The notes beneath the pieces are model-generated. The model saw only the letters and a program-made list of their open reading frames with translations, did no database searches and was not told the origin of the DNA. DNA of 64,000 nt from NCBI RefSeq assembly GCF_025136295.1, contig NZ_CP062788.1, positions 1,240,001 to 1,304,000 on the forward strand, in the 5' to 3' direction. The first letter of the stretch is position 1. Each line of letters opens with the position of its first letter. The DNA comes from Aestuariispira ectoiniformans (lineage in GTDB: Bacteria > Pseudomonadota > Alphaproteobacteria > UBA8366 > Aestuariispiraceae). Below are positions 4,848 to 48,614 of the stretch, one piece after another. Made by a program: the position numbers and the translations under genes.

Positions 4848-4961
4848 GTCATGGCTGGACTTGATCCGGCCACCCACGAGGGCACAGTCCTTTCTGGTGG
4901 AACGCGTCTACGCCGGGACGACAGCCTCTTCGTGGGTACGCGGGTCAAGCCCGCGCATGAC
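4848..4961. repeat. Inverted pair of GTCAT-CTTGA hairpin repeats (BIME-like), copy A
   Basis: The left unit at 4848-4880 reads GTCATG, stem, CTTGA loop, stem, CACCCACGA. The right unit at 4930-4961 is the same pattern on the opposite strand, with a different stem (CGCGGG/CCCGCG). The 49-base interior starts GGCACAGTCCTTTC and resembles the interior of the copy at 48500-48614. Each unit can form its own hairpin, and the pair can form a larger one. It lies inside the operon, between the flavoprotein and the SDR gene, where it could terminate, protect or destabilise the transcript. Confidence 0.8.
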
Positions 4962-22302: not shown

Positions 22303-22331
22303 AAACCACCCTTGGCCTCCAATACCTAACC

Positions 22332-22363
22332 GTCATGGCCGTGCTTGACACGGCCACCTACGA
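22332..22363 (+). repeat. Hairpin repeat unit, left side of the GIY-YIG element
   Basis: GTCAT, stem GGCCGTG, loop CTTGA, stem CACGGCC, then ACCTACGA. The same loop and flanks occur in the other units of the window, with different stem letters. Confidence 0.8.
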
Positions 22364-22381
22364 AGAGGGGACGGGCGGGAC

Positions 22382-22669
22382 ATGCAAGGTGGGTGGGTTT
22401 ACATCGTAACCAATAGGCCTAATGGCACACTTTATGTGGGTGTGACGAGTGACCTCAAAAAACGCGTATTCGAACATCGTGCGGGGGTGATGGCAGGTTT
22501 TACTAAGAGATATGGATTGAAGCGCTTAGTTTACTATGCAGCTTTTGGGGATATCCAATCTGCCATTCAGCGAGAGAAGAATATAAAACACTGGCCGCGT
22601 GCCTGGAAGGTTCGTCTCATCTTGATGGCTAATCCGGCATGGGATGATCTTTACCACAAGCTATTTTAA
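22382..22669 (+). CDS. Small GIY-YIG endonuclease family protein
   Basis: The 95-residue protein is a single GIY-YIG domain. WVYIVTNRPNGTLYVGVTSD (residues 5-24) holds both halves of the motif, in the VYI/YVG form. KKRVFEHRAG carries the catalytic Arg and a conserved His, FTKRYGLKRLVYY follows, and AIQREKNIKHWPRAWK holds the metal-binding glutamate. All expected catalytic residues are present, so it should be an active nuclease. Members of this short family are usually annotated only as putative endonucleases. The gene is GC-poor compared with its surroundings and is tightly bracketed by inverted hairpin repeats, which suggests that the repeats are its substrate or its vehicle. Confidence 0.93.
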   Translation: MQGGWVYIVTNRPNGTLYVGVTSDLKKRVFEHRAGVMAGFTKRYGLKRLVYYAAFGDIQSAIQREKNIKHWPRAWKVRLILMANPAWDDLYHKLF

Positions 22670-22670
22670 T

Positions 22671-22702
22671 CCGTGGGTGGCCGGATCAAGTCCGGCCATG
22701 AC
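22671..22702 (-). repeat. Hairpin repeat unit, right side of the GIY-YIG element
   Basis: Read on the minus strand: GTCAT, stem GGCCGGA, loop CTTGA, stem TCCGGCC, then ACCCACGG. It is inverted relative to the unit at 22332-22363 and starts one base after the GIY-YIG stop codon. Confidence 0.8.
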
Positions 22703-22742
22703 GAGGTTATATCTCCCTTTACCCAATTCCAAGTTCCACAAC

Positions 22743-48499: not shown

Positions 48500-48614
48500 G
48501 TCATCCTCGTGCTCGACACGAGGACCTACGGGGGCAAAGTCCTATCCGCAGAAAAGGCGATCACAGCGCAGGCAAAGCCGTTTCGTGGATACGCGGGTCA
48601 AGCCCGCGCATGAC
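48500..48614. repeat. Inverted pair of GTCAT-CTTGA hairpin repeats (BIME-like), copy D
   Basis: The left unit (48500-48530) reads GTCAT, CCTCGTG, CTCGA, CACGAGG, ACCTACG. The right unit (48583-48614) is inverted with stem CGCGGG/CCCGCG and loop CTTGA. The 52-base interior begins GGGGCAAAGTCCTATC, close to the interior of copy A. The rest of the 48472-48738 gap is AT-rich and holds nothing else I can support. Confidence 0.8.

Follow-up and report, generated by a model that had tools for sequence, protein, structure and literature searches.

What connects a small nuclease gene with the two DNA hairpins between which it is closely fitted? The question is raised by a stretch of 64,000 nucleotides (the window, whose positions are used below unless genome positions are named) from the genome of Aestuariispira ectoiniformans, a single contig of 4.36 Mb. 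REPs accompanied by RAYT, and the CGTC REP superfamily, were described between 2010 and 2013. Elements of the CGTC superfamily share a CGTC tag, a stem of 8-9 bp, a loop of 4-5 bases and a CCA-like tail, form inverted dimers and occur mainly in alphaproteobacteria; the passages of Di Nocera (2013) on their distribution place them mostly in intergenic DNA, not associated with transposase genes and apparently without a dedicated one (PMC3733652).

The whole unit, from tag to tag, occupies 22331..22703 on the + strand and consists of a REP, a GIY-YIG nuclease gene and an inverted REP, the two hairpins being 0.82 alike. Its left edge, where GTCATGGCC...CTACG begins at 22332, is a CGTC-type hairpin of 31 bases, GTCATGGCCGTGCTTGACACGGCCACCTACG (22332..22362, + strand; 9-bp stem, CTTGA loop), and an inverted relative (22672..22702, − strand) ends at 22702. 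Between them, a complete open reading frame at 22382..22669 (+ strand), supported by Pfam and an AlphaFold2 model, encodes a 95-residue GIY-YIG nuclease with intact catalytic residues. Two further pairs in the window lack the gene: REPs at 4848..4878 (+ strand) and 4931..4961 (− strand) flank a spacer of 52 bp (4879..4930) from the same family as those between the paired REPs at genome positions 658149 and 875274, and REPs at 48500..48530 (+ strand) and 48584..48614 (− strand) flank one of 53 bp (48531..48583) that weakly resembles the spacer at 875274. Re-checking confirmed the tight enclosure of a complete gene by a hairpin and its inverted copy, and the positions of the unit and of both gene-less pairs (4848-4961, 48500-48614), as a preliminary description had given them. 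Its remark that the gene is GC-poor relative to its surroundings also held (0.458 vs 0.587 for the window, with 10 of 1275 windows of 288 bp equally low). Rfam contains no family that reaches its gathering threshold within the window.

A pattern derived from the six window hairpins, allowing at most two mismatches, finds 32 copies in the genome, and the reversed pattern, used as a control, finds none; the repeat is not due to chance. Close pairs, 13 in number, account for 26 of the 32 copies, and 12 of these pairs have the (+,-) arrangement. As DNA, each of the six window units forms a hairpin of -8.5 to -11.4 kcal/mol (z -2.6 to -5.1), so that the claim of one hairpin repeat recurring as gene-less inverted pairs withstood the genome count, the pairing and the folding. 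The window units have the geometry 9/5, a CTTGA or CTCGA loop and a CCA, CCC or CCT tail. These units, most of whose copies form inverted dimers, fit the traits that define the superfamily (CGTC tag, stem of 8-9 bp starting with AT, loop of 4-5 bases, CCA tail), and the window hairpin is a CGTC-tagged REP. The CGT of the tag can additionally pair with an ACG after the tail, forming an outer stem (22330-22365 and the other five units).

Compensatory change in the stems, which the preliminary description had also read from the six units, stands in part. Among 23 distinct copies, some of whose letters were fixed by the search pattern, two-sided change cells (38 vs 12.1 in shuffles) and a covariation score (0.485 vs 0.172) were both matched by none of 500 shuffles; two of the five measures used, the number of stem pairs with two-sided change (5 vs 4.6) and the further stem pair types (13 vs 12.3), did not rise above shuffles. 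The outermost A-T stem pair is formed in just 5 of the 23 copies.

The spacers are informative about what is copied. One REP heterodimer occurs three times with a common 23-bp spacer, at genome positions 639540 and 645103 (5.6 kb apart) and at the distant position 3920411, and a spacer of about 53 bases is common to at least three pairs, including the window pair at 4848. Because spacers are shared, it appears that pairs, and not single hairpins, are what is copied, as sections of PMC3116915 describe for REPINs. Inspected by eye, the spacers in the two gene-less window pairs are unlike the ends of the gene unit and form families of their own; an origin of these two pairs as trimmed copies of the unit was rejected on that ground.

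The protein belongs to the GIY-YIG superfamily (Pfam PF01541, 54.8 bits against a cut-off of 22.6, E 1.2e-14), its 95 residues amounting to the nuclease domain alone (AlphaFold2 pLDDT 95.3). The GIY-YIG catalytic residues, whose roles are established, are Tyr, Tyr, Arg, Glu and Asn, represented here by Y7, Y18, R28, E65 and N84; in an alignment of 204 rows, Tyr7 and Tyr18 are found in 202, Arg28, His32 and Glu65 in 204 and Asn84 in 201, so the active site described earlier as intact is also nearly invariant in the family. The nearest solved folds are Slx1, UPF0213, HIGLE, I-TevI and UvrC, and since all have Z < 8 (VIA-align), this similarity supports the GIY-YIG fold only. The window protein resembles Slx1 and stand-alone UPF0213/YhbQ proteins (1zg2, 1ywl) in fold, and UPF0213 in size as well (1zg2: E 2e-7 by sequence, Foldseek E 7.8e-5, Z 6.9), but UPF0213-like genes rarely have REPs beside them in our data. 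It likewise shares the catalytic domain fold with homing endonucleases of the I-TevI type, but lacks a DNA-binding extension, and no intron or intein host was seen. Matches in PADLOC and PHROGs were weak only, mainly to homing endonucleases, and all those in NCBIfam fell below its cut-off. Large Rhizobium phages (records H34-H43) carry distant GIY-YIG relatives of 36-37% identity.

The host genome contains four relatives of the gene, one broken into two frames. Visual inspection places inverted hairpins, differing in type, around every one of the four; a detector of similar inverted pairs recognizes such a pair at three of them and none at L003, though the REP detector finds REPs pointing inward on both sides of L003 but no such REPs at L004.

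How general is this bracketing? A first set of 108 loci comprised the best 80 of at least 357 named alphaproteobacterial loci, the loci of the order (from 16 of 43 genomes) and the host's own copies; six with less than 150 bp of flank on one side were dropped, and the 102 used are biased towards near relatives and include a few partial genes and repeated places. An inward pair of CGTC REPs was present within 250 bp at 60/102 loci vs 0/2346 random windows, and any REP at 89/102 vs 99/2346. In a fairer sample, consisting of the best gene from each of 67 genomes among 231 of the class (65 after removal of two without flank), an inward pair was found at 18 loci, REPs on both sides at 24 and any REP at 41, the figures for 2002 random windows being 0, 0 and 76; 24 of these 65 genes lack any CGTC REP within 250 bp and 47 lack an inward pair.

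Several genes missed by the strict REP detector sit between other hairpin pairs. We therefore also scored hairpins irrespective of tag, calling a locus bracketed if two hairpins were at least 0.75 alike; 24 of 228 loci were left out as short, weak or control, leaving 204. Similar hairpins occurred on both sides at 126/204 loci vs 4/1518 random windows, with the best match inverted at 79 of the 126 and direct at 47, and 32 of the 65 one-per-genome loci were bracketed, which bears out the view that genes of this family are often flanked by hairpins. Controls were taken from 13 loci of weak GIY-YIG matches, mostly UPF0213-like: one of the 10 with flank for this test has a similar hairpin pair (L209), and two of the 11 with enough flank for the REP search have any REP, one of which (L221) is a partial family gene. 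That the partner hairpin may be replaced by an entirely different one is seen at L180, where identical AT-rich inverted hairpins (GAATTTTCAAAGAAAATTC plus 7 more identical bases on each side), quite unlike CGTC REPs, lie at about -80 and +49 of the gene.

The distance from the upstream REP tag to the first aligned codon is often 49 bases, also in genera remote from one another (exactly 49 in 13 of 116 genes, 43-52 in 34), and its recurrence hints at a constrained leader. At three loci from Rhodopseudomonas and Nitrobacter (L040, L049, L050) the gene lies between apparent murB and murC genes, names that we assigned from the starts of the neighbouring proteins; within the class sample, the MurB closest to theirs has an identity of about 60%.

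Homologues also occur on plasmids and outside the class. The plasmid collection yielded 33 records, of which 11 were inspected: hairpins flank the gene on both sides in Sinorhizobium (2), Sphingobium, Rhizobium CIAT894, Shinella, Neisseria gonorrhoeae and Aeromonas, and on one side only in R. tumorigenes and Photobacterium; none was found within 350 bp of the Planktothrix and Spirosoma homologues (L300, L302). The Planktothrix gene is located between MmeI-type restriction and DISARM genes. A phylum-wide sample gave a match in 32 of 120 genomes. Twelve non-alphaproteobacterial loci from it were inspected, 11 with flank (any REP at 8, inward pair at 5), and ten new alphaproteobacterial loci, 9 with flank, had any REP at 5 and an inward pair at 3.

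If the hairpins belong to the nuclease, their type should follow the protein, and it largely does. A maximum likelihood tree, built by a quick method, included 145 proteins whose genes have a CGTC REP of 9/5, 8/4 or 8/5 geometry; doubled loci were excluded, as were those lacking such a REP or having other lengths. Geometry changes 15 times on this tree, compared with a mean of 39.6 and a minimum of 32 after shuffling, and the nearest protein from another genome has the same geometry in 133/145 cases (79.2 expected), where a few neighbours may come from the same genome because one genome is possibly present under two names (L098, G071). Agreement reaches 100/102 for 9/5 and 31/32 for 8/4; the 8/5 geometry tracks the tree poorly (2/11). 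Within eight genomes of mixed geometry, 20/23 genes match, a value reached by 1 of 5000 within-genome shuffles, and for loop length alone in six genomes, 18/19 do (11 of 5000 as high), so host background cannot explain the match between clade and hairpin. The repeats elsewhere in each genome follow the same division: 18 class genomes whose fetched genes are 9/5 only contain 617 A-type and 44 B-type repeats, and 12 whose fetched genes are 8/4 only contain 0 and 386 (the typing covers fetched genes, not every gene of a genome; backward controls of the two patterns gave 1 and 0). The test proposed at the outset, whether each family gene is flanked by its own repeat type, comes out partly in favour: bracketing is frequent, and type mostly goes with the protein; the nuclease is paired with a hairpin, and specifically with a hairpin of its own type.

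Does repeat number depend on the gene? The family is patchy, being present at 60 bits or more in 68 of 231 class genomes (73 matched, five with weak matches only and counted as lacking it). Three or more A or B repeats are found in 36/68 genomes with the gene vs 15/163 without (Fisher 2.9e-12), and across 24 families of mixed gene state repeats are higher with the gene in 12, lower in 2 and tied in 10 (sign test 0.0065); families f41 and f45 have more REPs in their gene-less members. The 15 gene-less genomes hold 3 to 119 REPs (119 in G265, 73 in G239, 34 in G120); 12 of them have no relative even at E 0.01, and the remaining three match weakly, at 51, 51 and 24 bits. G265, a genome of 1.7 Mb, has no detectable family gene, and its 119 REPs are A-type. 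REPs therefore persist without the gene, as relics or through another agent, which argues against strict dependence; the prediction that repeat number falls in the absence of the gene is upheld as a tendency and contradicted as a rule by these 15 genomes.

REPs without the gene, and the mostly intergenic location that parts of the 2013 account report for them (PMC3733652), are what one would expect if another enzyme spread the REPs, or if they were terminators only, and the gene merely sat in REP-rich intergenic DNA. We regard such a passive association as very improbable, given that random windows of the same loci never contain an inward pair (0/2346, 0/2002), that other, mostly UPF0213-like GIY-YIG genes rarely have REPs (2/11 controls), that geometry tracks the protein inside one host and that the window's genome has no match to the Y1 transposase family (PF01797, Y1_Tnp). 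This last result also led us to reject a RAYT acting in trans as the spreading agent; in all, Y1_Tnp was matched in two of nine genomes searched, and six of eight REP-rich genomes of the class have none.

Orthologous sites show the unit in different states. Between fnrL and fixJ of Sphingobium, seven records match the filled stretch over its whole length; four were aligned, and in one of these, TYG73, the gene is broken. TYG64 and TYG74 show one palindrome, tagged with CGTC at both ends and composed of the outer halves of both REPs, and in TYG65, TYG72 and S. herbicidovorans no such REP lies between the two genes. At the site between gltA and lpxB, the palindrome of Sinorhizobium C101 bears the tags CTC and GAC, and a degenerate second REP comes after it. 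In S. meliloti Ak57 this site carries the unit intact and, next to it, a copy from which about 213 bases of the gene are missing and in which a REP, the leader, the 3' end of the gene and a REP are retained. What is gained or lost at these sites is the entire unit, bordered by the tags, and internal deletion can give rise to gene-less pairs, as in S. meliloti Ak57. The suggestion that gene-less pairs are non-autonomous copies of the nuclease unit accordingly has this one deletion copy in its favour and, against it, the window's own pairs, whose spacers differ from the unit's ends. The comparison of filled and empty sites that the preliminary description called for thus yields two sites that differ in presence of the unit, between which insertion and loss are not separable. 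Set beside an insertion sequence, the unit varies in presence at these two sites, with no target duplication defined. At the window's own locus, the left neighbour is found in 19 of 42 genomes searched, that of the window included; the DNA covered behind it in the other 18, at most 1.5 kb and in some far shorter, contained no right neighbour.

A gene-less state consisting of a palindrome tagged at both ends and made from outer REP halves (TYG64/TYG74, C101) would suit a homing process, in which the nuclease cuts gene-less pairs or symmetrical palindromes and the gene is copied in by repair, the bracketing REPs being both target and protected product; GIY-YIG is, moreover, the fold of some homing nucleases. 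The same palindrome results, however, from simple deletion between the stems acting as direct repeats, so that either polarity is possible, REPs far outnumber genes, and symmetrical forms are few (9 of 585 detections, at five loci between L036 and L261). We consider homing improbable. For most genomes the most similar copies of the gene inside one genome are old, their nucleotide identity being 0.56-0.79 in 27 of 28 (the remaining genome, G015, has a tandem pair 0.90 identical), which gives no sign of a recent jump by the gene. It is not a high-copy element, which parts of PMC8266576 likewise indicate for RAYT.

A different precedent comes from Neisseria. A study published in Nature Communications in 2025 reportedly introduced Ssn, a GIY-YIG family of site-specific single-strand nucleases there, with a repeat in hundreds of copies and thousands of homologues having sequences of their own; it is said to have described the system through cutting of single-stranded DNA and through transformation. 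An N. gonorrhoeae record in our data contains three GIY-YIG matches, one of which, 46.7% identical to the window protein and situated among dRS3-like REPs, is putatively Ssn. Like the window's system, Ssn reportedly pairs a small GIY-YIG protein with its own many-copy repeat. The preliminary description knew of no account of such a nuclease-repeat pairing; if the Ssn work is as reported, that statement fails, the pairing is known in principle, and the window contains a further member. The link of the nuclease to CGTC REPs may be new. Among titles and the opening parts of abstracts, with incomplete journal coverage, we found no publication that joins GIY-YIG proteins with REP, CGTC or dRS3 repeats; a term search of a 2006 survey of the GIY-YIG superfamily (PMC1564403) returned no inverted repeats or palindromes, and one of the main text of RepRanger, from 2025 (PMC12306157), returned no words beginning with nuclease or transposase.

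On the Neisseria model, the nuclease would cut incoming or exposed single-stranded DNA site-specifically, and the REPs would be recognition marks that gain from it, through altered transformation or recombination near marked genes, and spread by ordinary recombination or gene conversion rather than through the nuclease. The gonococcal homologue among dRS3-like REPs agrees with this, Di Nocera equating CGTC-1 of Neisseriae with dRS3 (PMC3733652); the specificity of hairpin for clade fits equally well, and so do gene copies that are not recently mobile. REP pairs with shared spacers recur at unlinked sites, however, suggesting that a unit is copied, and an internally deleted gene copy exists. 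We judge this account unlikely, though it deserves to be kept in view.

The reading that we favour, and hold to be probable to a modest degree, is that of a REPtron-like system where a GIY-YIG nuclease takes the role of the Y1 transposase, cutting its own REP and aiding the copying of REP pairs in trans. As in REPtrons, whose RAYT (TnpA_REP) genes accompany REPs and REPINs, divergent genes lie between their own REPs, REP pairs are the dispersed unit, protein and REP co-vary and the gene is not of high copy number. The differences are that RAYT is an HUH Y1 transposase acting with GTAG REPs, and that here a GIY-YIG protein accompanies CGTC REPs: bracketing by own REPs is found, an HUH Y1 transposase and a GTAG tag are not. 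Compared with the CGTC superfamily as the relevant parts of the 2013 paper present it (PMC3733652), what differs is the GIY-YIG partner seen here, no dedicated transposase having been described there.

Bracketing together with the match of hairpin to clade suggests that the nuclease recognizes the REPs and may help them to spread. The small protein would recognize its own CGTC-type REP by the hairpin, most probably in an extruded or single-stranded state, at a replication fork or during DNA transfer, and would cut it; REP pairs with a short spacer would then be copied to new intergenic sites in trans with the help of the nuclease, paralleling what is thought for REPINs with RAYT, and the gene would stay at one or a few sites, changing along with its hairpin. 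Binding, cutting, strand state and the copying step are inferred; most likely, the nuclease would drive the dispersal of REP pairs as RAYT does. More tentatively, the GIY-YIG family could be the missing partner of the whole CGTC REP superfamily, HUH/Y1 with GTAG and GIY-YIG with CGTC (dRS3 probably included) being two unrelated nuclease folds that independently came to disperse paired hairpins in trans, each co-evolving with the geometry of its hairpin, and copies with internal deletions would found new lineages of REP pairs.

CGTC REPs occur widely among alphaproteobacteria, and as of 2013 no agent that spreads them was known (PMC3733652). The present gene, which tracks hairpin type across hosts, is a direct candidate for that agent, and the question can be tested with one small protein and short oligonucleotides. 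If the proposal is true, it would represent a second, independent solution to REP dispersal, and the likely target of each such nuclease would be readable from its own flanks.
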